Assembly: GCA_014860745.1 (NCBI GenBank)
Contig: JACZJC010000072.1
Span: forward strand, 1 to 42,942
Source of the DNA: Anaerolineales bacterium
Lineage (GTDB): Bacteria; Chloroflexota; Anaerolineae; Anaerolineales; Villigracilaceae
Direction of reading: 5' to 3'
Length of the DNA stretch: 42,942 nucleotides
The position numbers were made by a program, and so were the translations under genes. Under the pieces are notes generated by a model that made no database searches, was not told the DNA's origin, and worked only from the letters and a program-made list of their open reading frames with translations. This document shows, in pieces, positions 6,141 through 19,518 of this stretch (position 1 is the first letter of the stretch; every line of letters begins with the position of its first letter).

Positions 6141-7061
6141 CTACCCCACGAAATCGCACCACGCTTCATACTTTGCGAGCTTTCCGCGGATTGCATCGTG
6201 ATACACAGTCTGGATCTCGCGTGTCACCTTGCCCGATTTCCCGTCCCCAATCTTGCGGAAGTCAATCTCGCTTAAGCCAATTACTTCCGCCGCGGTGCCG
6301 CACACGAAGACCTCATCCGCGTTGTAAAGCTGGTCGCGCGAAATGGGTATCTCCGATACGCTGTAGCCCAAATCCTTTGCAATCGTATGGATGGAATGAC
6401 GCGTGATCCCCTCCAGTACAGGCGCGGTGGACGGGGTGAAAATTTTGCCGCGTTTCACGATGAACAGGTTCTCGCCTGTGCATTCGGCAATGTATCCCTG
6501 CGGGTCGAGCATGATCGCTTCCTCAAACCCCAGCCGCACGGACTCGGTCTTGGCAAGAATGCTGTTCACATAATTGCCGGCAATCTTTGCCTTGGTCATC
6601 ATCACGTTCGGATGATGACGCGTGAATGACGAAATGTTCGCGCGGATGCCCTTCGCCAGCGCCTCCTCGCCCAGATAATTCGACCATTCCCAAACGGCGA
6701 TCATCAAGCCGGGCTTGCCCGCGTCGATGTTCAAGTTCCATGCGCCAGCCGTCAGGTACAGCAAAGGGCGGATGTAACATTCATCGAATCCGTTCGCCTT
6801 CACGGTTTCCTTGATCGCCTTCGAGACATCATCTGTAGTGTAGGGCAAATCACGAAACCCAAAGATCTGCGCCGATTTGAGCAGGCGTTCCGAATGTTCC
6901 TGCAAGCGAAATACCGCGGGTCCCTTGTCTGTCTTATACGCGCGAATACCTTCGAACACAGCCGCGCCATAATGCAATGCCGCCGTCAACATGTGGACGG
7001 TGGCTTTTTCGAACTCCACAAGTTTTCCATCCGACCAGATAAACTTCGACTCCATTCCCAT
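6141..7061 (-). CDS. ilvE: Branched-chain amino acid aminotransferase
   Basis: A 306-residue PLP enzyme (fold type IV) that transaminates the 2-keto acids of Val, Ile and Leu with glutamate, the last step of all three pathways. Visible are the N-terminal WSDGKLVEFEKATVHMLTAALHYG block, the region MMTKAKIAGNYVNSILAK that carries the PLP lysine, and EAIMLDPQGYIAECTGENLF near the middle. The ATG at 7061 has AGGAG 9 nt upstream; a second ATG two codons later is spaced less well. It lies 3 bp after leuB and is the last gene of the ilvD-ilvE operon. No clear terminator follows; the next element is the rpsB promoter. Confidence 0.95.
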   Translation of the reverse strand: MGMESKFIWSDGKLVEFEKATVHMLTAALHYGAAVFEGIRAYKTDKGPAVFRLQEHSERLLKSAQIFGFRDLPYTTDDVSKAIKETVKANGFDECYIRPLLYLTAGAWNLNIDAGKPGLMIAVWEWSNYLGEEALAKGIRANISSFTRHHPNVMMTKAKIAGNYVNSILAKTESVRLGFEEAIMLDPQGYIAECTGENLFIVKRGKIFTPSTAPVLEGITRHSIHTIAKDLGYSVSEIPISRDQLYNADEVFVCGTAAEVIGLSEIDFRKIGDGKSGKVTREIQTVYHDAIRGKLAKYEAWCDFVG

Positions 7062-7064
7062 AAC

Positions 7065-8132
7065 TCAATTCTCCTCTATTCGTTTAATAATTTCATCCGT
7101 CATCTGACGGGTGGTTAACTTGCCGCCGAGGTCTGCTGTCCGCGCGCCATCGGTGATGGTTCGATACACCGCATCTTCGATTGCACAGGCTTCGGATTCT
7201 AACTTAAATGAGTGACGCAGCATCATGGCAGAAGAAAGGATCGTGCCAATCGGATTTGCGATTCCTGTTCCTGCAATGTCTGGCGCAGACCCGTGGATCG
7301 GCTCAAACAACCCGACCCCTGCCTCGCCCAAACTGGCAGAAGGCAACATCCCCATCGATCCTGCCAGGACCGACGCCTCGTCTGTCAAAATATCGCCGAA
7401 CATATTCTCGGTGACGACCACGTCAAAGGAAGCAGGAGCAGTTATCAGCTTCATTGAGGCGGTATCCACGAGCGTATGTTCAAGTTCCACATCAGGATTT
7501 TCGTTTCCGATTTGAGTTGCAACCTGCCGCCACAGCCGCGAAGATTCAAGCACATTTGCCTTATCCACTGAGGTGACTTTTTTTCTGCGGCCCTTTGCAA
7601 GTTCAAAAGCAAGATTGACAATGCGCCTGATCTCATGGTCATAATATTCGAGCGTATCCACCGCGCGTTCGTGCCCGTCCTTTATCTCACGCATCTTGGG
7701 CTGACCAAAATACAATCCGCCAGTGAGTTCGCGGATGACGAGGATATCCACGCCTTTTAGTTTTTCGGGCTTGAGCGGAGAGACATCAACCAATGACGGA
7801 TGCACTTTGACGGGACGAAGATTGGCAAACACGCCAAGTCCCTTGCGCAAGGCGAGCAATCCGCGCTCGGGGCGGTCTTTGGCTTTGGGGTCATCCCATT
7901 TCGGTCCGCCCACTGCACCAAGCAAAACTGAGTCGGAGGCTTTGCAATCGGCAAGCGTTTCATCGGTGAGCGACGAGCCGTATTTATCAATGGAACAGCC
8001 GCCCATCAGGCGTTCTTGAAAATTGAACGTATGTTTATATTTGGCGGCAACGGTTTCCAGCACCCGCACAGCTTCGCCGACCACTTCGGGGCCGATGCCG
8101 TCGCCAGGTAAGAGAGTTATTTTGAAATTCAT
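7065..8132 (-). CDS. leuB: 3-isopropylmalate dehydrogenase
   Basis: A 355-residue NAD-dependent beta-decarboxylating dehydrogenase of leucine synthesis. In this operon it probably also oxidises erythro-beta-methyl-malate in the citramalate route to isoleucine. It shows [14 protein letters not shown] at the N terminus, [23 protein letters not shown], the [10 protein letters not shown] active-site segment and [18 protein letters not shown]. The chosen ATG at 8132 has GGAGA 5 nt upstream; a start six codons earlier would fall inside the preceding hairpin. It lies 3 bp before ilvE. Confidence 0.96.
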
Positions 8133-8144
8133 TGTTCTCCGTAG

Positions 8145-8187
8145 GGACACGGCTTGCCCGTGTCCAGGGCGACCGTGAAGGTCGCCC
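8145..8187. repeat. Two adjacent hairpins in the cimA-leuB spacer
   Basis: GGACACGG-5 nt-CCGTGTCC (8145-8165) and GGGCGACC-5 nt-GGTCGCCC (8167-8187) stand side by side and fill almost the whole spacer of 60 bp. Neither is followed by a T tract. They resemble short GC-rich palindromes scattered in other genomes; here they may stabilise the ends of processed operon mRNA. Confidence 0.75.
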
Positions 8188-8192
8188 CAACA

Positions 8193-9755
8193 TTAATGCG
8201 CCACCATCAGTCCGTACTCCACCGAATCTGCAAGCGCGCGCCAGCTTGCTTCGATGATATTTGTGCCCGCGCCGACGGTACTCCAGCGGCTGGTGGAATT
8301 ACGCGTGTCGATCAATACGCGGGTGATGGCTTCGGTGCCGTGTTCCGAATCCAATATGCGGACTTTGTAATCGGACAAATGGAAATTCTTGATCTGCGGA
8401 TAGTAGCCTGTCAGCGCCTTTCGCAAGGCGAGGTCCAACGCGTTGACGGGACCGTTCCCTTCGGCGGCAGTGTGCAGCACCTCGCCCTGCACGCGGACTT
8501 TGACGGTCGCTTCGGCAAAGATGCCGCGTTTATCACGATGTTCGACGTTGACAAAAAAATCAATCAATTCAAATGGCGGTCTATAGCCGTATTCCTGCCG
8601 TTTCAACATCATCGCCACAGAAGCCTCGGCGGCCTCGAAGGAAAAGCCGCGCGCTTCGAGTTCCTTGATCTCGTTGAGGATGGGAACGACTTCCGTGCCT
8701 TCCACTTCGACGCCGTGTTCCTCCGCTTTGCTGAGCAAATTGCCGCGACCAGACAAATCCGAGACGACCACGCGCATTTTATTGCCGACGAGTTCAGGTT
8801 CCACATGTTGATAGGATTGCGCAGAGCGCCGCATCGCCGCGACATGCACACCACCTTTGTGTGCGAATGCAGACTTGCCGACAAATGGCAAATGCTCATC
8901 GGGAGTGAGATTCGCCACTTCCGCCACGAAATGGGATAAATCATATAAATGCTGGATGCTCCCATTGGGCAGGCAGTGATATCCCATCTTAAGTTCAAGG
9001 TCTGCGATGACCGAGCAAAGATTGACATTGCCGCAGCGCTCCCCCACCCCATTGATCGTCCCCTGCACCTGGATAGCTCCCTCGCGCACAGCGACAAGCG
9101 AATTCACAACCGCACATTCGGAATCATTGTGCGTGTGAATGCCAAGCGGATGATCGATTGCAGACTTTAATTCGCCGAAGATGCGTTTTACTTCCCACGG
9201 GAAAGTCCCGCCGTTGGTATCGCACAGGACGACTGTCTCTGCGCCGCCGCGAATTGCAGCTTGCAAGGTTTCGAGCGCGTAGGATGAATCCGCTTTGTAG
9301 CCGTCGAAGAAATGCTCGGCGTCGTAGATGACTCGTTTGCCATTGGCTTTGAGATAGGCAACCGATTGCTCGATGATGCGCAGATTATCTTCACTGGTGG
9401 TTTGCAAAACTTCCTTTACATGAAGCGTCCACGTCTTGCCAAAGATGGTGCAGACGGGTGTTTGCGAATCAAGCAAGGCTTTGATGTTGGCATCGTCTTC
9501 AGGCCCGCCTTTGACACGGCAGGTGGAGCCAAAGGCGGCGATGAGCGCGTTCTTCCATTGCATGTCACGGGCGCGTTCGAAGAACTCCACATCTTTTGGA
9601 TTGGAACCAGGCCAGCCGCCTTCGATGAAGGCAACGCCAATGTCATCGAGTTTTTGCGCGATGCGGACTTTGTCATTACTCGAAAGCGTAAAGCCTTCGG
9701 ACTGTGTCCCGTCGCGCAGGGTGGTGTCGTAGATTTGGATGAGGGGTAAGGTCAT
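8193..9755 (-). CDS. cimA: (R)-citramalate synthase
   Basis: A 520-residue member of the DRE-TIM/isopropylmalate-synthase family that condenses pyruvate with acetyl-CoA to citramalate. It begins IQIYDTTLRDGTQSEGFTLS with the metal/catalytic DTTLRDG motif, has the CimA-type IEGGWPGSNPKDVEFF and RVIYDAEHFFDGYK segments, the HTHNDSECAVVNSL metal site, and a C-terminal LeuA dimer/regulatory domain from about residue 380. These features fit the CimA branch and differ from the leuA gene in the same operon. Start: ATG at 9755, just before the barrel; ribosome site weak. Its presence inside the operon gives a threonine-independent route to 2-ketobutyrate, and no ilvA is seen. Confidence 0.92.
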   Translation of the reverse strand: MTLPLIQIYDTTLRDGTQSEGFTLSSNDKVRIAQKLDDIGVAFIEGGWPGSNPKDVEFFERARDMQWKNALIAAFGSTCRVKGGPEDDANIKALLDSQTPVCTIFGKTWTLHVKEVLQTTSEDNLRIIEQSVAYLKANGKRVIYDAEHFFDGYKADSSYALETLQAAIRGGAETVVLCDTNGGTFPWEVKRIFGELKSAIDHPLGIHTHNDSECAVVNSLVAVREGAIQVQGTINGVGERCGNVNLCSVIADLELKMGYHCLPNGSIQHLYDLSHFVAEVANLTPDEHLPFVGKSAFAHKGGVHVAAMRRSAQSYQHVEPELVGNKMRVVVSDLSGRGNLLSKAEEHGVEVEGTEVVPILNEIKELEARGFSFEAAEASVAMMLKRQEYGYRPPFELIDFFVNVEHRDKRGIFAEATVKVRVQGEVLHTAAEGNGPVNALDLALRKALTGYYPQIKNFHLSDYKVRILDSEHGTEAITRVLIDTRNSTSRWSTVGAGTNIIEASWRALADSVEYGLMVAH

Positions 9756-9785
9756 AGGTCGTTCCGTGGTGCGTGAGAAAAAGAG

Positions 9786-9826
9786 ATTGAAGACAGGAGA
9801 CAAGTCTCCAATCGCTAGTCTCTACT
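9786..9826. repeat. Hairpin-forming word repeat, leuD-cimA spacer
   Basis: The central near-palindrome GGAGACAAGTCTCC (9796-9809) is flanked by imperfectly complementary GATTGAAGACA and AATCGCTAGTCTCT segments. The leuD stop codon (9815-9817) lies inside it, so the last leuD residues (ESRD) are read from this word sequence. Words such as GTCTCC and AGTCTCT recur at 13618-13667. Confidence 0.55.
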
Positions 9827-10396
9827 CTCGTATGCCGCAATCTCTTTCTCAAAACCGAGTATGTAACCAAGTTCGTCCACGCCGTTCAACAGACAAGTCT
9901 TATTGAATGGGTCAATCGGGAAGGTTACCGAACCGCCAGGGTAGGATAATGTTTGGGACGCCAGATTAACTGTCAGCTCGGCGCGAGGCGCTTCTTCCAA
10001 CAGGTCGAAGAGCAGCTTGTGAGTCTCGTCGTCCACGATGATGGGGATGAGTCCATTCTTCAAAGAGTTGTTGCGGAAGATGTCTGCAAAGGAGGTGGAG
10101 ATGACAGCGCGGAAGCCGTAGCTGGTGAGCGCCCAAGGCGCATGCTCGCGGCTCGACCCGCAGCCGAAGTTGTCACCTGCTAATAGAATTTGTACACCCT
10201 TTGACTCGGGCTTGTTGATGATGAAATCTTGCTTCGGCGATTTGTCGTCGTTGTAGCGCCAGTTGAAGAAGAGCGCGTCGGCGAGACCGTTCTTGTCGGT
10301 CACTTTGAGGAACTGCGCGGGGATGATCTGGTCCGTGTCAATGTCGTTGACAGGGAGTGGAAGTACGCGTGAGGTTAGGGATGTGAATTGAGCCAT
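9815..10396 (-). CDS. leuD: 3-isopropylmalate dehydratase small subunit
   Basis: A 193-residue swivel-domain subunit that pairs with LeuC to isomerise 2- to 3-isopropylmalate, and probably citramalate to methylmalate in this operon. It has VLPLPVNDIDTDQIIPAQFLK at the start and the invariant GDNFGCGSSREHAPWAL loop, then VISTSFADIFRNNSLKNGLIPI. This is the bacterial long form (about 200 residues), not the 160-residue archaeal form. ATG at 10396; no strong ribosome site. The last four residues are encoded by the spacer hairpin, and the protein core ends before them. Confidence 0.95.
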   Translation of the reverse strand: MAQFTSLTSRVLPLPVNDIDTDQIIPAQFLKVTDKNGLADALFFNWRYNDDKSPKQDFIINKPESKGVQILLAGDNFGCGSSREHAPWALTSYGFRAVISTSFADIFRNNSLKNGLIPIIVDDETHKLLFDLLEEAPRAELTVNLASQTLSYPGGSVTFPIDPFNKTCLLNGVDELGYILGFEKEIAAYESRD

Positions 10397-10485
10397 GATT
10401 AGGTTCCAAGTTTCAAGTATCAGGTTTCAGGTCGATGAAAACGATATTTGATAATAGATCTTCAAGTATCGAATTATCGAGTATC
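10397..10485. repeat. Word-repeat spacer with imperfect hairpin, leuC-leuD
   Basis: The first part carries direct repeats of TTCAAGTATC/TTTCAGG-like words. The second part pairs GATATTTGATAAT (10443-10455) with ATTATCGAGTATC (10473-10485) with two mismatches. The leuC stop codon (10474-10476) is inside the second arm, so leuC ends ...VLDTR from word sequence. TATCGA words also build the leuA-leuC hairpin. Confidence 0.5.
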
Positions 10486-11883
10486 GAGCACCGTGCGCGG
10501 GTCTGTCACTACGCCGTTAATGGCAGTCGCCGCGGCTGTGATGGGGCTTGCCAAAAATGTGCGACCTCCTTTGCCCTGGCGTCCTTCAAAGTTGCGGTTG
10601 CTGGTGGAGATGGCGTATTGACCGGGCTGGAGTTGATCGCCGTTCATTGCGATACACATGCTGCAGCCTGCTTCACGCCATTCGGCTCCGGCTTCCTTGA
10701 AGACTTTGTCGAGACCTTCCTGTTCGGCTTGCTTCTTGACATCCTGCGAGCCGGGGACGACCATCACACGCGTACCATCGGCAACCTTGCGTCCTTTTAG
10801 TATCCCAGCAGCAAGACGTAAATCGGAGATGCGCGAGTTGGTGCAGGAGCCGATGAAGACCACATCCACCTTTTGGCCGAGCAGGGATTGACCCGGCTGG
10901 ATCCCCATGTAATTCAATGCTTTTTCAAGCGCAGCCTTTTGGGAAGGTTCTGTGAATAATTCGGTGGTAGGGACGCGGTCAGTGATCTTCATTCCCATGC
11001 CAGGATTCGTGCCGTAGGTGATCATCGGTTCGAGATCGGCGGCGTTGAGCGTGATGGACTTGTCGTAGACGGCGCCTTCGTCGGAGGGCAGTGACTTCCA
11101 TTTCGAGACGACTTTGTCCCATTCTTCGCCTTTGGGAGCAAACTCGCGTCCGTGCAGGTATTCAAAGGTCGTGTCGTCGGGAGCGATCATGCCAGCGCGC
11201 GCGCCGCCTTCAATGGACATGTTGCAAATGGTCATGCGCTGTTCCATCGTCAGGCCGCGGATGGCTTCGCCTGTGTACTCGAAGACGTGACCCGTCCCGC
11301 CGCCGACTCCGATGCGGGCAATGAGCGCGAGGATGATGTCTTTCGCTGAAACACCGTTTGCAAGTTTGCCATCCACGCGGACTTCGTAAGTCCTGGGCTT
11401 TTTCTGCAAGAGACATTGAGTCGCGAGAACGTGTTCAACTTCGCTGGTGCCAATGCCAAAAGCAAGCGCACCAAATGCACCGTGCGTGGCGGTGTGACTA
11501 TCACCGCAGACGATGGTCATACCGGGCTGGGTACGTCCGAGTTCGGGACCGATGACATGGACAATGCCACGGTATGGACTGTCCATGCCATGCAGAGTAA
11601 TTCCGAATTCCGCCGCGTTGGTTTCCATCTGCTTGATCTGGGCGGCGGCCAATGCGTCCGCAATGGGAACATGGATCGGCGTGGTCGGAATCGAGTGATC
11701 CATCGTCGCCAAAGTCTTATCGGGGCGGCGAACCTTCAATCCGCGCTGGCGGAGTCCCGTGAAGGCCTGGGGCGATGTGACTTCGTGGACCAGGTGCAAA
11801 TCAATATAAAGTACAGCGGGGGATTCGGGCTGTTCAGCGACGACATGTGAGTCCCAGATTTTTTGGAAGAGAGTCTTTGGCAT
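10474..11883 (-). CDS. leuC: 3-isopropylmalate dehydratase large subunit
   Basis: A 469-residue aconitase-family subunit that binds a 4Fe-4S cluster. The cluster cysteines are visible in [14 protein letters not shown] and in [46 protein letters not shown] is the family hallmark (read in pieces around residues 120-150). The length matches the E. coli protein (466). The ATG at 11883 follows AGGA by 6 nt; an in-frame TTG five codons earlier is less likely. It lies between leuA and leuD and works as a heterodimer with LeuD. Confidence 0.96.
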
Positions 11884-11902
11884 GAAGTTTCCTGTCAAGA
11901 AA

Positions 11903-11951
11903 GATATTCGATATTCGGTACTCGATAATCGTCTCTCGAATATCGAATACC
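11903..11951. repeat. Hairpin built of ATTCGATATTCG words, leuA-leuC spacer
   Basis: Perfect 13-bp arms TATTCGATATTCG (11905-11917) and CGAATATCGAATA (11937-11949), each arm itself a near-tandem repeat of a 7-mer, enclose a 19-nt loop. It fills the 73-bp spacer between leuA and leuC except for the leuC ribosome site. No T tract follows on the transcribed (minus) strand, so it is not an obvious terminator. Confidence 0.75.
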
Positions 11952-11956
11952 GTTTT

Positions 11957-13597
11957 TTATCCCAGCATCACACCAAAATCATTCGGCACTTTTTCGGTGC
12001 CCTCGGTTTGGGCAATGATGAGTTTGTTCAATGCGTTGATGTAGGCTTTTGCGCTGGCGACGATGATGTCCGTATCTGCACCGTGGCCGCCATATACACG
12101 GGCATATTCCACTTCGCTTTGCGCGTCCATCGTGGTGTGACCGTTCGTTCCCTGAATGCGTACGGTCACTTCGCCGAGCGCGTCTATGCCTTCGGTGATG
12201 GCGTGGATGTTGAACTCAAGCAGCGTGCACGGGATGCTTACGATGGCGTTGATGGCCTTGTACGTCGCATCCACGGGACCCGTGCCGATCGAGGCTTGCG
12301 TGTGAACGACTCCGTCGGGTCCGCGCAATCGGACGGTGGCGGTGGGCATACCCATCGTTCCGCAGGAAACCTGCAAGCCGTTTAACAAATACACATCGCG
12401 CGGCTTGTAAAACTCATCCGCGATCACGGCCTCCAGATCCAAATCGGTGATGACCTTCTTGCGGTCGGCGAGTTCCTTAAAACGCGCAAAGGCTTTATCG
12501 AGTTCCACATCATCGAGCGAGTGACCCATCTCCGCGAGACGGTTGCGAAGCGCATGGCGTCCCGAATGTTTGCCGAGCACAAGATTCGTCTGATTGACGC
12601 CGACATCTTCGGGGCGCATGATCTCGTACGTCGTCTGGTGTTTCAACATGCCGTCCTGATGAATGCCCGCTTCATGCGCGAACGCGTTCGACCCGACAAT
12701 CGCCTTGTTCGGCTGAACAACAATGCCTGTGTAATTGCTGACCAGTTTGGAAAGACGCGAGAGTTGTTGGGTCTCGATACCGGTATCCAGCCCAAAGACA
12801 GGATGACGCGTCTTCAATGCCATTACGACTTCCTCCAGCGAAGTGTTCCCAGCGCGTTCGCCGATTCCGTTGATGGTCACTTCCGCCTGACGCGCGCCCG
12901 CACGAATACCCGCCAGCGTGTTCGCGGTCGCCATGCCCAGATCATCATGGCAATGCACCGACACGGTAATGCCTGCGTGCATCCCAGGCGTTTTTTCGAT
13001 GATACCCTTGATGAGCGCATAAAATTCATCGGGCGTGGTGTAACCCACCGTGTCGGGAATATTCAACGTGGTTGCACCGGACTTGATCGCCTCACCCAAA
13101 ACCACATACAAAAACTCGGGTTCAGAGCGTCCCGCATCTTCAGGACTAAACTCAACATCATTGCACAACGTCTTTGCGTACGCAACCATCTCCGAAACAC
13201 ATTGGATCACTTCTTCAGGATCCATCTTCAACTTGTGCTTCATATGGATCGGCGACGTGGCAAGGAAGGTATGAATGCGCGGCTTCTTAGCACCTTGTAC
13301 CGCCTCCCACGCCTTATCAATATCGGATTTATTTGCCCGCGCCAGCCCTGCGATGACGGGAACTTTCGCCTCATTCTCAAGGGAAGCTGGGTTGCCCACT
13401 TCGAGCGCAATTCGTCTGACAGCTTCCAGGTCGTCGGGCGAGGCCGCAGGGAATCCCGCTTCGATAATATCCACGCCGAGCCGTGCCAGATTATGCGCCA
13501 CTTCCAACTTCTCAGCGGAAGTCATCGTCGCGCCGGGAGATTGCTCGCCGTCTCTTAGTGTGGTGTCGAAAATTTTGACGTAGTTTATTTTTGTCAT
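11957..13597 (-). CDS. leuA: 2-isopropylmalate synthase
   Basis: A 546-residue enzyme that condenses 2-ketoisovalerate with acetyl-CoA, the committed step of leucine synthesis. It opens with [19 protein letters not shown] (metal/catalytic DTTLRDGEQ), has [17 protein letters not shown], the [18 protein letters not shown] metal site and [20 protein letters not shown]-terminal LeuA regulatory domain (about residues 400-546) normally binds leucine for feedback inhibition. The ATG at 13597 has AGGA 7 nt upstream. It is paralogous to cimA in the same operon, but the two are readily told apart by the block after DTTLRDG. Confidence 0.96.
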
Positions 13598-13617
13598 ACG
13601 GTCTTCCTCTCAGGAGG

Positions 13618-13667
13618 AGAGACTGGATGACTGGAGATTAGTGACTAGTCTCCAATCTCCAGTCTCT
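13618..13667. repeat. Hairpin built of GAGACTGGAGATTAG words, ilvC-leuA spacer
   Basis: Outer arms AGAGACTGGA (13618-13627) and TCCAGTCTCT (13658-13667) are perfect complements, and inner GGAGA/TCTCC segments extend the stem. The ilvC stop lies 5 bp away. Here, as in the other spacers, a few short words and their reverse complements make up the whole spacer. Confidence 0.75.
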
Positions 13668-13672
13668 AATCT

Positions 13673-14725
13673 CTATTTTTTCCAATTCTCCGGCCTCAAC
13701 GACCGCACCGCCGCGCCTGCGCGCCACATTTCCGAATCACGGATGGCGGCAAGTTCCACTTCGAGTTTGGCGCGGTAATCAGGCTGGCTGTTGGCTTCGA
13801 GCGTGATGCGGGCTTCGTTGCCCGAAACCACGCTTTGATACAAATCGCTGAACACAGGCGCAACCGCATCGCGGAATCTATCCTTCCAATCGAGCGCACC
13901 GCGCTGGGCAGTGGTGGAGCAGTTCGCATACATCCAGTCCATGCCGTTCTGACCGACGAGGCGAATCAGTGATTGCGTGAGTTCTTCCACAGTTTCATTG
14001 AAGGCTTCGGAAGGAGAATGTCCATGCCTGCGGAGCTCGTTGTACTGCGCTTCCATCACGCCCGCGAGGGCGCCCATGAGAATCCCGCGCTCGCCTGTGA
14101 GGTCGGAATACACTTCCTTTTCAAACGTGGTCGGGAAGAGATAGCCCGCGCCGATGGCAATCCCCAACGCGATCGTGCGGTCTTTCGCCTTCCCTGTTGC
14201 ATCCTGATGGACGGCGAAACTGGCATTGATACCTGAACCGTCGAGATAATTCAAGCGGACACTTCGTCCCGATCCCTTCGGCGCGACAAGCGCCACATCC
14301 ACGTGCGGCGGGGGAATCACACCCGTGTCATCCTTGAATGTGACAGAAAATCCGTGCGAGAAATACAGCATGTCGCCTTCGTTCAGACATTCCACGATCT
14401 TCGACCATTGCGAGCGCTGACCCGCATCCGATAACAGATATTGAATGACCGTTCCTTTCTCTGCGGCTTCCTCAACGGGGAACAACGTTTCGCCCGGGAC
14501 CCAGCCATCTTCCACAGCCTTGTCCCAGTTCTTCGTTCCTTCACGCTGACCGACGATCACGTTGATGCCGTTATCGCGCATGTTCATCGCCTGCGCAGGG
14601 CCCTGCACACCGTACCCCAACACCGCCACTACTTCATCCTTAAGAACCTCCCGCGCTTTCTCCAGTGGAAATTCATCACGTGTTACCACTTCTTCTTCCA
14701 CACCGCCAAAATTTATCTTTGCCAT
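13673..14725 (-). CDS. ilvC: Ketol-acid reductoisomerase (class I, eukaryote/Bacteroidota-like)
   Basis: A 350-residue NADPH enzyme that isomerises and reduces acetolactate or acetohydroxybutyrate, the second common step of Val/Ile synthesis. The Rossmann motif GYGVQG is at residues 37-42. The knotted C-terminal domain has SDLTGERGILMGALAGVMEAQ and HGHSPSEAFNETVEE. Several segments (FSHGFSVTFKD, GMDWMYANCSTTAQRGALDW, NSQPDYRAKLEVEL, RSLRPEN) resemble yeast Ilv5 and, as I recall, Bacteroidota enzymes more than the usual about 330-residue bacterial form. ATG at 14725 with AGGAG 11 nt upstream. Same operon position as in other bacteria (after ilvBN), so the gene may have been replaced in place. 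Confidence 0.93.
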   Translation of the reverse strand: MAKINFGGVEEEVVTRDEFPLEKAREVLKDEVVAVLGYGVQGPAQAMNMRDNGINVIVGQREGTKNWDKAVEDGWVPGETLFPVEEAAEKGTVIQYLLSDAGQRSQWSKIVECLNEGDMLYFSHGFSVTFKDDTGVIPPPHVDVALVAPKGSGRSVRLNYLDGSGINASFAVHQDATGKAKDRTIALGIAIGAGYLFPTTFEKEVYSDLTGERGILMGALAGVMEAQYNELRRHGHSPSEAFNETVEELTQSLIRLVGQNGMDWMYANCSTTAQRGALDWKDRFRDAVAPVFSDLYQSVVSGNEARITLEANSQPDYRAKLEVELAAIRDSEMWRAGAAVRSLRPENWKK

Positions 14726-14747
14726 GATTTCAATTTCTCCTTTTTAG

Positions 14748-14857
14748 GTCATTGCGAGCGGAGCGAAGCAATCTCAACGCACCTGCAATGAATATATTGA
14801 TGATTAAGTTGGAGGTTGCTTCGGGCTTCGCCGTTTGAGGCTCGCCATCGCAATGAC
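14748..14857. repeat. Dispersed palindrome, TCATTGCGAG family, copy 2
   Basis: The left arm begins GTCATTGCGAGCGG and runs into GAAGCAATCTC. The right arm runs GAGGTTGCTTCGG to ATCGCAATGAC. They are reverse complements with several interruptions and enclose about 35 nt. The element occupies almost the whole ilvN-ilvC spacer, ending 9 bp before the ilvN stop codon on one side and 22 bp before the ilvC ATG on the other. Confidence 0.8.
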
Positions 14858-14866
14858 AGACCCACT

Positions 14867-15424
14867 CTACGGCACCATCGCCGCTACGGGCACTTCCTCA
14901 TAATGACGATCGCTCATGCCAGGCATACGGCGCACGCCGTCGTTAACGCCGCGCGTCATTGCGACCTGGCCCGTGCGTACCATCTCCACGATGCCGATCG
15001 GACGGAGTAGTTCCATCATGCCTTCGATTTTGTCCTCCGTGCCGGTGATTTCGACAATGACCGAATCAGGAGCCACGTCCACGATGCGGGCGCGGAAGAT
15101 CTCAGCCAGCCCATTGACTTCGGCGCGGCGGTCAGGCGCGACCTTGACCTTGATCAGAGCCAAGTCACGGGTCACCGAAGGCTGATGCGTTACATCCTGC
15201 ACGTCAATCACGTTGACCAGCTTATACAGGTTCGCTTCGATGCGGTGTGCATCCACATCCCCATTCGGGCAACTCACCACGATGGTCATACGCGACACAT
15301 CGGGGTTATCCGTCCGCCCGACAGCGAGAGACTCGATATTGAAATTGCGGCGGCGAAACAGCGATGCAACGCGGTTCAACACGCCGGGTTTATTTTCTAC
15401 TAATGCGATAAAGGTGTAATTCAT
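14867..15424 (-). CDS. ilvN: Acetolactate synthase small (regulatory) subunit
   Basis: A 185-residue regulatory subunit that binds valine and tunes the IlvB catalytic subunit. It has an N-terminal ACT domain (about residues 3-75: ALVENKPGVLNRVASLFRRR, FNIESLAVG, RMTIVV) and a C-terminal ALS_ss_C-type domain with LALIKV, FRARIVDV and VEITGTEDKIEGMMELLRPIGIVEMVRTG. This is the IlvH-like length (about 160-185 residues), not the 96-residue IlvN form. The ATG at 15424 has GGAG 6 nt upstream; an upstream in-frame start at 15454 would lie in the spacer hairpin and is rejected. It directly follows ilvB. Confidence 0.94.
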   Translation of the reverse strand: MNYTFIALVENKPGVLNRVASLFRRRNFNIESLAVGRTDNPDVSRMTIVVSCPNGDVDAHRIEANLYKLVNVIDVQDVTHQPSVTRDLALIKVKVAPDRRAEVNGLAEIFRARIVDVAPDSVIVEITGTEDKIEGMMELLRPIGIVEMVRTGQVAMTRGVNDGVRRMPGMSDRHYEEVPVAAMVP

Positions 15425-15440
15425 TTGTACTCCTATCCGT

Positions 15441-15493
15441 CTTTCATCTTTCATCCTCCGTTGTGTCTCAAACGGAAAGAAGAAAGAGGAAAG
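15441..15493. repeat. Hairpin built of CTTTC/GAAAG words, ilvB-ilvN spacer
   Basis: CTTTCATCTTTCATCCTCCGTT (15441-15462) and AACGGAAAGAAGAAAGAGGAAAG-type sequence (15471-15493) are reverse complements with a few mismatches and an 8-nt loop. The arms are near-tandem repeats of CTTTCAT and GAAAGA. It fills the 78-bp spacer except for the ilvN ribosome site. Confidence 0.65.
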
Positions 15494-15502
15494 AGTTTAT
15501 TT

Positions 15503-17194
15503 TTATGCAGCCTGTTTGACTGGTCTTCTTATCATTTCATGCAATGCCGAACCGGCGGGAACCATCGGGTACACGGCATCTTCCTGTTCCACGCGGAACT
15601 CCAGTACAACCGGTCCCCTGGTCTTGCGTGCCCATGCGATGGCTTCACCCACTTCTTCACGTTTGGTCACAAGCCGCGCAGGGACTCCATGCGCCTCTGC
15701 CAGTTTCACAAAATCTGGCGTGAGCATATTAACTGCGGAATAGCGCTTCTCGAAGAAGAACTCCTGCCATTGGCGCACCATGCCGAGGAAGTTGTTATTC
15801 ATGATCGCGATTTTCACGTTCGCGCCTTCCTGAACGGCAGTGGTCAACTCGGCAGCGGTCATTTGGAATCCGCCATCACCGGCAATTGCCCATATCTCCT
15901 GATCTTTCGCTGCAAACCACGCGCCAATGGCCGAAGGGAGACCAAAGCCCATTGTCCCCGCGCCGCCCGAAGTGATCCAGCGGTTCGGTTTATCCAGTTG
16001 ATAGTATTGCGCCGTCCACATCTGGTGCTGTCCGACATCCGTTGTCACGATCGCGCCGCCGCCTGTCGCTTTCCAAATGTCACCGATCAGATGCGCCACG
16101 TACAACTTGCCGTCATCTTCCCAATTCATGATCGAGCGGGAATCTGCTTCGTTCTTCCAATTATTGATCTCCTCCAGCCATTCATCATGGTCGTATTCAT
16201 CCACCAGGGGAATCAGATCACTCACGACCGTTTTCACATCGCCGACCAGGGGAACGTCCACAAACACATTTTTATGCACTTCGGACGGGTCAATTTCGAT
16301 ATGGATTTTCTTTGCCTTCGGCGCGTACGTTTTCAATGTACCGGTTACCCGGTCATCGAAGCGCATCCCAAAGGCAAGGATCAGATCGGAATTTTGAATC
16401 GCATTGTTCGCATACGCTTCGCCGTGCATCCCCATCATGCCCAGACTCAACGGATGCGACGCGGGAAACGCGCCCAAGCCCAGCAATGTGCTGGTCACAG
16501 GCGTTTGAGTCTTCACCGCAAACTGCATCAACTCTTCTTCGGCCTTCGACATCAACACGCCATGTCCACATAGAATGACAGGCTTCTTCGCTTTCTCGAT
16601 TAACGCCACCGCCTCATCGAGCAGGCTGCGCGGCGACCGCGTCACAGGCTGGTAGCCGGGCAGTTTCACTTCTTCCGGATAAACAAATTCACACGACTCC
16701 ACCTGTGCGTTCTTGCAAATGTCGACCAACACGGGGCCGGGTCGTCCACTGCGCGCGATATAAAACGCCTCACAGATCGTCTCCGCAATCTGGTCAGCGC
16801 GCGTCACAAGATAATTATGTTTCGTAATCGGCAGGGTAATGCCTGTAACATCGGTCTCCTGAAACGCATCGCCGCCGATCAAATGTGCCGCAACCTGTCC
16901 CGTAATGAATACGACAGGAACCGAATCCATCATTGCCGTGGCAATACCCGTCACCAAATTCGTTGCGCCAGGTCCCGATGTTGCCATTGCCACTCCCACT
17001 TTTCCCGAAACGCGCGCGTATCCATCCGCCATGTGTGCCCCGCCCTGTTCATGCCGCACTAATACATGATGGACGGGATAATTCAACATCGCATCATAGA
17101 TCGGCATGTTCGCCCCGCCCGGATAGCCGAAGACCACTTCCACGCCTTCACGCATCAGACATTCCCAAACAATCTCTGCACCTTTTAGTTTCAT
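15503..17194 (-). CDS. ilvB: Acetolactate synthase large (catalytic) subunit
   Basis: A 563-residue thiamine-diphosphate enzyme that makes acetolactate (Val/Leu) or acetohydroxybutyrate (Ile). Three TPP-enzyme domains are visible. The N-terminal one has VFGYPGGANMPIYDAM and RHEQGGAHMADGYAR (catalytic Glu). The central one has LGMMGMHGEAYANNAI and FGMRFDDRVTG. The C-terminal one has the ThDP motif GDGGFQMTAAELTTAV to IMNNNFLGMVRQWQ. The ATG at 17194 has AAGGAG 5 nt upstream; an earlier in-frame start at 17239 lies inside the ilvD-ilvB hairpin. Its partner IlvN follows directly. Confidence 0.96.
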   Translation of the reverse strand: MKLKGAEIVWECLMREGVEVVFGYPGGANMPIYDAMLNYPVHHVLVRHEQGGAHMADGYARVSGKVGVAMATSGPGATNLVTGIATAMMDSVPVVFITGQVAAHLIGGDAFQETDVTGITLPITKHNYLVTRADQIAETICEAFYIARSGRPGPVLVDICKNAQVESCEFVYPEEVKLPGYQPVTRSPRSLLDEAVALIEKAKKPVILCGHGVLMSKAEEELMQFAVKTQTPVTSTLLGLGAFPASHPLSLGMMGMHGEAYANNAIQNSDLILAFGMRFDDRVTGTLKTYAPKAKKIHIEIDPSEVHKNVFVDVPLVGDVKTVVSDLIPLVDEYDHDEWLEEINNWKNEADSRSIMNWEDDGKLYVAHLIGDIWKATGGGAIVTTDVGQHQMWTAQYYQLDKPNRWITSGGAGTMGFGLPSAIGAWFAAKDQEIWAIAGDGGFQMTAAELTTAVQEGANVKIAIMNNNFLGMVRQWQEFFFEKRYSAVNMLTPDFVKLAEAHGVPARLVTKREEVGEAIAWARKTRGPVVLEFRVEQEDAVYPMVPAGSALHEMIRRPVKQAA

Positions 17195-17212
17195 TCTCGC
17201 TCCTTGAAATTC

Positions 17213-17270
17213 GACGATGGACGATTGACCACAGACCATGGTCGATTATCCATGTCAATCGTCTATCGTC
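17213..17270. repeat. Hairpin built of GACGATGGACGATTGAC words, ilvD-ilvB spacer
   Basis: The 17-bp arms (17213-17229 and 17254-17270) match at 16 of 17 positions. Each arm is a near-duplicate of a GACGAT word, and the loop itself carries the palindrome GACCATGGTC. The ilvD stop codon (17269-17271) lies in the outer end of one arm. It is followed by the ilvB ribosome site. Confidence 0.8.
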
Positions 17271-18942
17271 AGCCGTCTGTACTTAACACCGCACCCGTAT
17301 CCGCGCTGGTGACAAAATACGAATACCGTTTTAACCACTTCGATGTGGTCTTGGATTGGAACGGAGGCAGCATATCGAGCCGACTTTGTATCTCTGCCTC
17401 GCTCAACCTAACGTCGAGTCTGCGTGCGGCCAAATCAATTTGGACGATGTCCCCAGCCTTGAGCACCGCAATCGGACCGCTTGCCGCCGCCTCAGGTGAC
17501 ACATGACCAATGCACGCGCCGCGCGTCCCGCCGCTAAAGCGGCCATCGGTGATGAGCGCGACCTTGTCGCCGAGTCCCTGCCCCATAATGGCGGACGTGG
17601 GTGATAACATCTCCTGCATCCCGGGCCCGCCCTTTGGTCCTTCGTAGCGAACCACAACACAATCCCCGGCTTTGACCTTGCCAGCCAAAATCCCCGCCAT
17701 CGCCTCATCTTGTGACTCAAAAATGACAGCGGGCCCCTCGAACTTCATCATCGCCTCGCTCACACCACCGACTTTGACAACCGCACCATTTGGAGCAAGA
17801 TTGCCAAACAGAATGGATAAGCCTCCACGCTTGGAATGAGCGTTGTCATAACGTCGGATTACTTCTTCATCTTTGATATCACAGCCTTGAATTGATTCCC
17901 CCAGCGTCTTGCCAGTGACCGTGATGCGGTCAAGATGCAACATCCCCGTCCCCCGTTGGACTTCGTTCAATATCGCAGGGATGCCGCCCGCGCGATGCAC
18001 GTCTTCCATATGCCATTTGCCAGCTGGACTCACTTTGCAGATATGCGGCACCTTGTCCGCCACCGAGTTGATGCGTTCCAGCGGATAATCCACACCTGCT
18101 TCGTTTGCCAATGCCAGCGTATGCAGCACTGTATTCGATGAACCACCCATCGCCATATCCAACGCAAAGGCATCATCAATAGCGTCAGCAGTGACAATGT
18201 CTCGCGGTTTGATGTCGCGTTCGATGAGAGTCATCACCTGTGCGGCGGCTTGTTTCGCCAATGTTTCCCGTTCGGGAGTCTTCGCCAAGGCAGAGCCGTT
18301 ATACGGTAAAGCGAGGCCGAGAACCTCCATCAGGCAGTTCATGGAGTTGGCAGTGAACATGCCAGAACACGAACCGCAGGAAGGACAGGCAAACTTTTCC
18401 AAAATGGATAAACGCTTTTCGTCGATCTTTCCTGCTGAGAAAGCCCCCACGCCTTCGAATACTGAGATCAAATCGATCGTCTCGCCGTCAGGAGTCATGC
18501 CTGCTTTCATTGCGCCGCCAGAGACAAAGATGGTGGGCACGTCCACGCGCATGGCGGCGAGCAGCATGCCAGGCACGATCTTGTCGCAGTTGGGGATGCA
18601 GACCATGGCGTCAAATCTGTGAGCTTCGATCATGGTCTCGACGCAGTCAGCAATTAGTTCACGGGAAGGAAGCGAGTACTTCATCCCCATGTGACCCATC
18701 GCGATGCCGTCATCCACACCGATGGTGTTAAACTCGAACGGCACACCGCCCGCCGCACGGACGGCATCCTTCACCAGTTTGCCAAAATCCTGCAAATGCA
18801 CATGCCCGGGCACCACATCCACATACGAATTGACGATGGCAACGAAGGGCTTGTTGAAATCTTCATCCTGCAGACCGGTGGCGCGTAACAAGGCGCGGTG
18901 CGGCGCTTTATCGAATCCTTTTTTCACTGTATCTGATCGCAT
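17269..18942 (-). CDS. ilvD: Dihydroxy-acid dehydratase
   Basis: A 557-residue Fe-S enzyme that dehydrates 2,3-dihydroxy acids to the keto-acid precursors of Val, Leu and Ile. It shows the cluster ligands CIPNCDK and [22 protein letters not shown], then [27 protein letters not shown], the C-terminal [23 protein letters not shown] block and a full-length IlvD/Edd fold. The ATG at 18942 has AAAGGAG 5 nt upstream. In-frame codons back to 19035 fall inside the dispersed palindrome and are not coding. It is the first structural gene of the operon, downstream of the Leu/Ile/Val leader peptide and terminator. Confidence 0.96.
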
Positions 18943-18957
18943 AACGCTCCTTTGGGT

Positions 18958-19054
18958 ATGTCGTTGCGAGGAGGGCACTTGCTCTTTCCGACGAAGCAAT
19001 CTCCAATTGTGAGGAGACTGCTTCGGCAAAAACAAGAGCGCCTCGCAGTGACAT
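18958..19054. repeat. Dispersed palindrome, TCATTGCGAG family, copy 3
   Basis: Outer arms ATGTCGTTGCGAGG and CCTCGCAGTGACAT and inner GAAGCAATCTCC/GGAGACTGCTTCGG segments form a long imperfect hairpin. It lies between the ilv attenuator terminator and the ilvD ribosome site, so it is at the 5' end of any read-through mRNA. Confidence 0.8.
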
Positions 19055-19057
19055 AAT

Positions 19058-19090
19058 AAAAGAGCCGCCCGTGGTTAGGGCGGCTCTTTT
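19058..19090 (-). terminator. Attenuator terminator upstream of ilvD
   Basis: AAAAGAGCCGCCC-7 nt-GGGCGGCTCTTTT makes a 13-bp stem. On the transcribed minus strand it ends in TTTTATTAT. It begins 21 bp after the stop codon of the Leu/Ile/Val leader peptide. Its 5' arm (GCCGCCC, continuing into the loop as TAACC) can instead pair with GGTTAGGATGGC in the leader peptide, which is the signature of an attenuator rather than a simple gene-end terminator. Confidence 0.93.
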
Positions 19091-19111
19091 CACTTACTAA
19101 GGTGTGTTTTG

Positions 19112-19216
19112 TTACTTCACTCTCACCGTTGCCATCCTAACCGAAAATTGATCCTTAATAATAAGGACCGCAAGGATGACTACAATAAGGGAGAGGCTGA
19201 ACAAAGACGGGGTCAT
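19112..19216 (-). CDS. Leader peptide of the ilv-leu operon (Leu/Ile/Val attenuator)
   Basis: A 34-codon ORF, ATG at 19216 to TAA at 19112-19114, starts about 13 nt after the predicted transcription start and has no Shine-Dalgarno site. Residues 10-20 read LIVVILAVLII: ten of eleven are branched-chain residues, as in the E. coli ilv leader peptides. Pairing segments in the RNA: region 1 GTCATCCT (19173-19180, in the Val-Ile-Leu codons), region 2 GGTTAGGATGGC (19131-19142), region 3 GCCGCCCTAACC (19073-19084) and region 4 GGGCGGC (19064-19070). Region 1 pairs with 2, 2 with 3, 3 with 4. Ribosome stalling for want of charged Leu/Ile/Val tRNA would mask region 1 and let 2:3 block the terminator. 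The product itself probably has no function. Confidence 0.92.
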   Translation of the reverse strand: MTPSLFSLSLIVVILAVLIIKDQFSVRMATVRVK

Positions 19217-19235
19217 TGGCTTGTGATTTCGCCCG

Positions 19236-19263
19236 ATTATAGGCGGAATCGGAAATCCGTCAA
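19236..19263 (-). promoter_or_regulatory. Promoter of the ilv-leu operon
   Basis: On the minus strand TTGACG (19258-19263) and TATAAT (19236-19241) are separated by 16 bp. The predicted start lies near 19229, about 13 nt before the leader-peptide ATG. It diverges from the aspartokinase promoter, and the 74 bp between the two -35 boxes are free of genes. Confidence 0.88.
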
Positions 19264-19337: not shown

Positions 19338-19366
19338 TTGACATATCTGCGTCCCTGCCATAAAAT
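19338..19366 (+). promoter_or_regulatory. Promoter of the aspartokinase operon
   Basis: TTGACA (19338-19343), a 17-bp spacer and TAAAAT (19361-19366) form a near-consensus sigma70 promoter. The expected start is near A19374, only about 4 nt before the leader-peptide ATG at 19378, so the leader peptide is read from an essentially leaderless mRNA. Confidence 0.92.
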
Positions 19367-19377
19367 CCCGCCCAATT

Positions 19378-19461
19378 ATGAACCTTTGCCGCTACTGCAT
19401 GACCATGACTATGAATACCTCCCGGACCTCCCGTGAGGAATTTGTGCTTGGGCAGAAGTAA
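19378..19461 (+). CDS. Leader peptide of the aspartokinase operon (Thr/Met attenuator)
   Basis: A 27-codon ORF begins about 4 nt after the predicted transcription start and ends with TAA at 19459-19461. Residues 8-17 read MTMTMNTSRT, with Thr at codons 9, 11, 14 and 17 and Met at 8, 10 and 12, amino acids made from aspartate semialdehyde. Pairing segments: region 1 CCTCCCGG (19418-19425), region 2 CCGTGAGG (19431-19438), region 3 CCTCACGG (19494-19501), region 4 CGTGGGGCG (19505-19513). Region 1:2 has one mismatch, 2:3 is a perfect 8-bp helix, and 3:4 is the terminator. Stalling at Thr11 or Thr14 covers region 1 and frees region 2 to form the antiterminator. No Shine-Dalgarno site precedes it. 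Confidence 0.9.
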   Translation: MNLCRYCMTMTMNTSRTSREEFVLGQK

Positions 19462-19489: not shown

Positions 19490-19518
19490 AACGCCTCACG
19501 GAAACGTGGGGCGTTTTT
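19490..19518 (+). terminator. Attenuator terminator upstream of lysC
   Basis: AACGCCTCACG-GAAA-CGTGGGGCGTT forms a perfect 11-bp stem (one T-G pair) closed by a GAAA tetraloop and followed by TTTTTGTTT. It lies between the leader-peptide stop and the lysC ribosome site. The CCTCACGG half of its 5' arm can pair with CCGTGAGG in the leader peptide instead. Confidence 0.95.

Follow-up and report, generated by a model that had tools for sequence, protein, structure and literature searches.

A probable ribosome-mediated transcription attenuator ahead of the branched-chain amino acid operon of an Anaerolineales bacterium

Within the window, i.e., the whole stretch of 42,942 nucleotides that was analyzed, a short leader precedes ilvD, and we regard it with high confidence as a ribosome-mediated transcription attenuator of the branched-chain amino acid (BCAA) operon. 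Such a device very probably lets the bacterium switch on a ten-gene operon only when BCAAs run short, as in Escherichia coli. The initial annotation had proposed for this element the logic of E. coli ilv attenuation, which is now supported by conservation among orthologous ilvD upstream regions and by compensatory changes in the helices. A classical attenuator with the geometry of E. coli ilvL is a known kind of element; the literature that we searched yielded none for this phylum.

Anatomy of the ilvD leader

The leader stands ahead of the operon ilvDBNC-leuACD-cimA-leuB-ilvE, in which each of the ten genes scored above the cutoff of an NCBIfam equivalog or equivalog-domain model, thus confirming the earlier description of an operon of ilv, leu, and citramalate synthase genes. 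The closest named relatives of IlvD belong to metagenome-assembled genomes of Anaerolineales/Chloroflexi, one of them a Candidatus Villigracilaceae, so the assignment to a probable Chloroflexota was also right. Genes for ribosomal protein S2 and EF-Ts lie past the operon, and an aspartate kinase gene is found upstream of the BCAA leader on the plus strand. The coordinates of all features are given in the table below.

Features of the BCAA leader, its operon, and the adjacent aspartate kinase leader (positions in the window)
Feature	Position	Strand	Details
ilvD, dihydroxy-acid dehydratase	17269..18942	(-)	first gene of the operon; Shine-Dalgarno AAAGGAG
ilvB, ilvN, ilvC, leuA, leuC, leuD, cimA, leuB, ilvE	6141..17239	(-)	NCBIfam models
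Promoter, sigma-70-type	19236..19263	(-)	TTGACG-16-TATAAT; 11/12 consensus positions
-35 box	19263-19258	(-)	TTGACG; followed by a 16-nt spacer
-10 box	19241-19236	(-)	TATAAT
Leader peptide ORF	19112..19216	(-)	34 codons, MTPSLFSLSLIVVILAVLIIKDQFSVRMATVRVK; ATG 19216, stop 19114-19112
BCAA run	19189-19157	(-)	LIVVILAVLII, leader residues 10-20
Region 1	19173..19189	(-)	5' side of helix 1:2, within codons L10-L15; folds, pair counts
Region 1 core as first described	19180-19173	(-)	GTCATCCT
Inner hairpin of the 1:2 domain	19150..19169	(-)	GGTCCTTATTATTAAGGATC, codons V17-D22; fold, covariation
Region 2	19131..19142	(-)	GGTTAGGATGGC; partner of region 1 or region 3
Region 3	19073..19084	(-)	GCCGCCCTAACC; pairs with region 2 in the antiterminator; also 5' arm and loop of the terminator
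Region 4	19070-19064	(-)	GGGCGGC
Intrinsic terminator 3:4	19058..19090	(-)	13-pair stem, 7-nt loop, T-rich 3' side
Promoter of second leader	19338-19366	(+)	TTGACA-17-TAAAAT
Second leader ORF	19378-19461	(+)	27 codons, Thr/Met-rich, MNLCRYCMTMTMNTSRTSREEFVLGQK
Region 2 of second leader	19431-19438	(+)	CCGTGAGG
Region 3 of second leader	19494-19501	(+)	CCTCACGG
Terminator of second leader	19490-19515	(+)	
Aspartate kinase start	19550	(+)	

A base-by-base comparison located the promoter, the 34-codon open reading frame (ORF), the run at residues 10 to 20, and regions 2, 3, and 4 exactly where they had first been described. Helices 1:2, 2:3, and 3:4 are indeed mutually exclusive, and 2:3 comprises 12 positions with one mismatch (A.C), one of its 11 standard pairs being G.U. 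Region 1 was correctly placed but drawn too short, since helix 1:2 spans the codons for L10 to L15; these pair with region 2 together with the bases that follow and enclose a further hairpin. Region 2 itself sits within the leader ORF, ahead of the stop codon. If transcription starts seven bases past the -10 box, at about position 19229, the 5' untranslated region would be approximately 13 nt long, and no Shine-Dalgarno sequence precedes the leader ORF of the window. For the 160-nt leader, the folding energy is -61 kcal/mol, compared with -37.4 ± 4.1 kcal/mol for shuffled sequences (z = -5.8; 0/200 shuffles were as good), and its predicted fold consists of the 1:2 domain and the terminator.

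The T-run of the 3:4 terminator lies mostly within the stem, which is our guess as to why a scan of the operon region for terminator-like sites does not list this terminator. Within the operon, the number of such sites on the minus strand was 7, compared with 14.3 in shuffled sequences, and they were short (5 to 7 pairs). A palindromic interspersed repeat occupies positions 18956 to 19052, between the terminator and ilvD, and has 50 match places in the genome, including itself; other repeats were seen by eye at the same spot in several relatives.

Conservation, covariation, and reading frame

To examine conservation, we drew 91 distinct ilvD upstream regions of at least 200 nt from 30 plus 80 loci and searched them under fixed criteria, i.e., an ORF with at least seven Leu, Ile, or Val residues in ten codons, a terminator, and a 2:3 duplex of -11 kcal/mol or lower. 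The BCAA ORF, antiterminator, and terminator were detected together in 89 of these regions, and no reverse strand (0/91) or dinucleotide shuffle (0/455) passed. The reading thus survived a check that could have refuted it, namely whether relatives keep the leader and the terminator. No leader was found in the two remaining regions, L083 (labeled Acidobacteria) and L092 (labeled Ignavibacteriae). As the loci are the best IlvD matches, this conservation applies to relatives at close to moderate distance (71 to 100% IlvD identity). One locus that has a leader, L052, repeats that of L025 and was set aside, giving a listing of 88 leaders. Cultured relatives with the leader include Bellilinea caldifistulae, Leptolinea tardivitalis, Flexilinea flocculi, and Ornatilinea apprima (loci L086, L079, L088, and L101). 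The N-terminal part of the peptide differs between species, and Leu, Ile, and Val are all present in 86 of the 88 leaders; the BCAA richness of the ORFs is not independent evidence by itself, since BCAA content was the criterion by which these ORFs were selected. Two loci (L074 and L075) carry tandem BCAA-rich leader ORFs before ilvD, at about -368 and -190, the first with its own terminator, and L109 may resemble them. A second small ORF apparently lies between the attenuator terminator and ilvD in seven others (L081, L082, L095, L097, L099, L103, and L106, by eye).

For covariation, leaders more than 86% identical to another were dropped, leaving 59 nonredundant sequences (alignment A1); L083 and L092, which have no leader, the repeated L052, and L084, an internal fragment, had been left out before the counts. 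The covariation that the initial annotation had proposed to look for in the three helices was found as compensatory changes in 3:4 and 2:3 and, more weakly, in 1:2. For 3:4, 95.7% of cells were paired, with changes on both sides in 53 cells and 7/8 pairs; the corresponding values were 82.1%, 49 cells, and 9/11 pairs for 2:3 and 68.4%, 82 cells, and 18/25 pairs for 1:2. Helix 1:2 is the weakest by this measure, as 47 of 500 shuffles reach its number of doubly changed pairs. Versions of 1:2 slid out of register were at most 54.0% paired, compared with 68.4% in register, and its inner hairpin was paired in 75.2% of cells, with 7/8 pairs changed on both sides. The fixed alignment columns probably understate 2:3 and 1:2, because the helix shifts by one base between groups.

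Folding energies were calculated for the same 59 leaders. The native 2:3 duplex averaged -19.5 kcal/mol versus -14.5 kcal/mol when partners were swapped between species, each leader beating its own mean swap in 56 cases, and the duplex reached z < -2 against shuffled region 2 sequences in 45 cases. Folds up to the terminator had z < -2 in 37 leaders, and with region 3 withheld, region 2 paired upstream (P > 0.5) in 52.

The reading frame of the leader is also preserved. Insertions and deletions relative to the window leader were multiples of three in 75/84 cases before region 2 and in 25/172 cases in the spacer. A TTGAC-N16-18-TATAAT promoter was detected upstream of the leader ATG in all 48 members of the clade with at least 84% IlvD identity and in 55/88 leaders overall. 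Shine-Dalgarno-like motifs precede the leader in none of these 48 and in 10/88 overall, and they precede ilvD in 46/48 and 75/88, respectively.

Predicted switching and alternative explanations

According to the mechanism that we propose, RNA polymerase would start near position 19229 and a ribosome would load on the leader ORF. A shortage of charged Leu-, Ile-, or Val-tRNA should stall the ribosome in codons 10 to 20, where it would cover region 1, leaving region 2 free to pair with region 3 as it emerges, so that no terminator would form and the ten genes would be transcribed. With charged tRNAs available, the ribosome would cross region 2, inside the ORF, and halt at the adjacent stop codon; with the ribosome past or next to region 2, regions 3 and 4 would pair and transcription would end near position 19058. 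When no ribosome is present, 1:2 would form and 3:4 would again terminate. Sequence analysis establishes the anatomy, with its conservation and covariation, and the reading frame; stalling, coupling, termination, and the response to amino acids are inferred for the cell.

We modeled which helix would form at each ribosome position on a transcript extended just past region 3, under two rules by which upstream RNA is either free to pair or barred from pairing. Under the free rule, the predicted probability of 2:3 in the window was 0.00 without a ribosome; with the A site at codons 6 to 8 it was 0.82 to 0.95, at codons 9 to 20 it was 1.00, at codon 21 it was 0.64, and at codons 22 to 33 it was at most 0.01, and it was 0.87 at codon 34, the last one, and 0.68 at the stop codon. 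Under the barred rule, it was 0.88 to 1.00 at codons 6 to 22, 0.30 at codon 23, 0.18 at codon 24, and 0 from codon 25 to the stop. In the model, a ribosome stalled in the control codons and one crossing region 2 thus behave as the mechanism requires, the prediction for the last codon and the stop codon is ambiguous because it depends on the rule, and the window leader also forms 1:2 over the control codons, which frees the terminator without a stalled ribosome.

Across the 59 leaders, the mean probability of 2:3 under the free rule was 0.85 with a stall in the BCAA run, 0.33 (median, 0.06) without a ribosome, and 0.49 at the stop codon; the stall value exceeded that without a ribosome in 45 leaders and that at the stop position in 42. 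It exceeded both other states by at least 0.3 in 22 leaders under the free rule and in 40 under the barred rule. Since 21 leaders gave a probability above 0.5 without a ribosome (free rule), 1:2 is not dominant everywhere. The end of region 2 lies 14 to 18 nt ahead of the stop codon in 30/59 leaders, which is about the distance covered by a ribosome at the stop, and a ribosome halted there may then block 2:3.

A similar switch might operate without any reading of BCAA codons and respond instead to a protein, to a metabolite, or to the general traffic of ribosomes, with the Leu/Ile/Val-rich ORF as a spacer or constitutive feature. The ilvB leader of Streptomyces coelicolor has a similar look and was unresponsive to codon substitutions, as described in PMC1262725, and the 21 leaders that form 2:3 in the model without a ribosome would suit such a switch. 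However, region 1 falls within the BCAA codons, the ORF retains its frame and its Leu/Ile/Val content while the remainder of the peptide varies, and no Rfam family reached its gathering score in the leader. The adjacent aspartate kinase leader moreover has Thr/Met codons, so that the codons fit the pathway in both cases, and we consider codon-independent control highly improbable.

The peptide could instead be a small functional product, for instance, a membrane peptide, followed by an ordinary terminator. Peptides rich in Leu, Ile, and Val do look like membrane peptides and a terminator is present, yet the N-terminal part varies between species, the terminator shares its strand with ilvD and stands directly ahead of it, and covariation links region 2, which is part of the ORF, to region 3, which is not, a pattern that constraint on coding alone would not give; the chance that this explanation holds appears very slight. 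As for a fortuitous combination of a short ORF with a repeat-derived hairpin, this genome has many interspersed repeats and one lies between the terminator and ilvD, but an arrangement recovered in 89/91 orthologous regions and in none of the shuffles or reverse strands has a practically negligible probability of being accidental, and conservation refutes it. Attenuation governed by translation of the BCAA codons is the reading that we retain.

Known leaders, distribution in Chloroflexota, and a second leader

Like the leader of ilvXGMEDA in E. coli (ilvL, NC_000913.3), which has 32 codons, that of the window has a BCAA leader ORF with a BCAA operon downstream, region 2 within the ORF and upstream of its stop codon, mutually exclusive 2:3 and 3:4, and a terminator. 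Unlike in E. coli, the operon has a different gene set and order, with ten genes including leu and cimA, and the leaders of the window clade lack a Shine-Dalgarno sequence. A covariance model of the leader, R1, scored E. coli thrL at 29.6 bits, leuL at 29.2, ilvL at 23.3, hisL at 15.9, and ivbL at 8.0. Homology with the E. coli leaders was rejected as a line of evidence, since thrL and leuL obtain higher R1 scores than ilvL even though the alignment of R1 with ilvL runs from end to end, and no similarity specific to ilvL beyond the layout was detected with R1. Since the model also responds to thrL and leuL, its score alone is no proof of distant homology.

Among other described systems, actinobacterial ilvB leaders (Corynebacterium ilvB-II motif) likewise have a BCAA-rich upstream ORF before ilvB-type operons, and terminators, according to PMC10272879 and PMC1262725; they belong to another phylum and another operon, and the likeness is drawn from their published descriptions. 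The ilvB-OMG and Leptospira ilvB motifs, for which attenuation was proposed, also have a BCAA-rich upstream ORF before ilvB, and according to PMC10272879 threonine is enriched there as well, which sets them apart by description. Other BCAA leaders are treated in PMC8632094, PMC3766115, PMC4833913, and PMC2494555. According to PMC2965389, Proteobacteria and Actinobacteria were by 2010 the only groups with known leader-peptide systems, and Firmicutes were then added. Among the papers listed by our literature searches, we recognized none that describes such a leader from Chloroflexota, and the wide survey of Lopatovskaya et al. (2010) may contain one. An Rfam scan of the window found only a tRNA at gathering score and no leader family, the best leader-type score in the BCAA leader being 23.2 bits for Phe_leader (threshold, 55), and a scan of nine relative loci returned no family at gathering score. 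A T-box riboswitch (RF00230) was rejected as the identity of the ilvD leader, as the window has no T-box match.

R1 was then used to follow the leader through the phylum. It had one match in its own genome at 139 bits, followed by one at 36.5 bits. Among these weak matches (36.5 bits and below), three regions were inspected (L182 to L184) and rejected, as they contain nothing that matches any of the window's ten BCAA proteins; the attenuator script was run on six regions from this genome and near relatives and passed two, one of them falsely (L184, by eye a TatA-like ORF). Overall, 63 of 400 sampled Chloroflexota genomes had a match at E ≤ 0.01. By our own tally of the order (37 genomes sampled), matches were present in 24/24 genomes with ilvB (E ≤ 1e-140) and in two further genomes without ilvB at this cutoff, and all 11 genomes without a match lack ilvB. 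The rest of the class had matches in 14/17 genomes with ilvB, and elsewhere in the phylum they were few and patchy (23/342 genomes).

Outside the order, we inspected 34 regions, corresponding to 35 of 39 match rows (G389, G429, G452, and G461 were left out). Judged by matches to the window proteins, the closest BCAA gene was ilvB in 23, ilvD in 3, and ilvE in 1, and the script recovered a full attenuator in 30/34. A set of 60 ilvB upstream regions from genomes without an R1 match, 58 of them outside the class, yielded eight candidates, one of them (L219) doubtful, with none among 60 reverse strands and 600 shuffles. Where the operon is split, R1 also matched a second copy before a separate ilvE at L185 (G027:C42) and L173 (G378:C100), of which the script confirmed only the former. 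At L159 and L168 (family f44), the leader is followed by a divergent protein of approximately 600 residues, by eye resembling a thiamine pyrophosphate (TPP) enzyme; at L168, its gene occupies the position of ilvB, ahead of ilvC and leuA.

Back to back with the BCAA leader is a second, conserved attenuator, predicted from its sequence to be coded by Thr and Met, before the aspartate kinase gene. A Thr/Met-rich ORF, a terminator, and a 2:3 duplex were found at all of the best 30 of 60 aspartate kinase matches in 100 genomes of the family, compared with 0/30 reverse strands and 0/300 shuffles; these 30 leaders hold on average 5.4 Thr and 2.1 nonstart Met residues each. One locus with a terminator that looks wrong (L272) was kept in these counts and left out of the alignment (A3, 29 leaders), in which 3:4 was 99.7% paired and 2:3 was 95.6% paired, with nine doubly changed cells in 2/8 pairs; 273 of 500 shuffles attain this number of pairs. 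The native duplex beat its mean swap in 25/30 leaders by a small margin (-18.4 versus -16.8 kcal/mol). A TTGAC-N16-18-TANNAT promoter was present in 21/30 leaders, and a Shine-Dalgarno-like motif was detected in 0/30 leaders compared with 21/30 aspartate kinase starts.

T-boxes also read tRNA charging. The genome itself carries seven T-box matches at E ≤ 0.001 (L253 to L259), two of them above the gathering score, which precede pheS, thrS, valS, serS, ileS, leuS, and trpE; several of the synthetase genes score below curated cutoffs because the examined stretch cuts them. With T-boxes and leader peptides in one genome, a single cell probably uses both types of RNA element to read tRNA charging. 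We give roughly even weight to a broader reading and to its contrary, by which Chloroflexota would have their own old, lineage-wide leader-peptide attenuation beside T-boxes, the latter serving the Val, Ile, and Leu tRNA synthetases and the former the BCAA operon and the divergent aspartate kinase gene (Thr/Met), both leaders being almost leaderless mini-ORFs without a Shine-Dalgarno sequence. If this is true, the second leader would make the charging of methionyl- as well as threonyl-tRNA a signal. The set of Chloroflexota leaders supported by covariation is relevant to how old attenuation is or whether it arose repeatedly, and it adds regulatory annotation to a group that is known chiefly through metagenomes; the presence of the leader and T-boxes in one genome offers a natural setting in which to compare, within the same cell, two RNA devices for reading tRNA charging.
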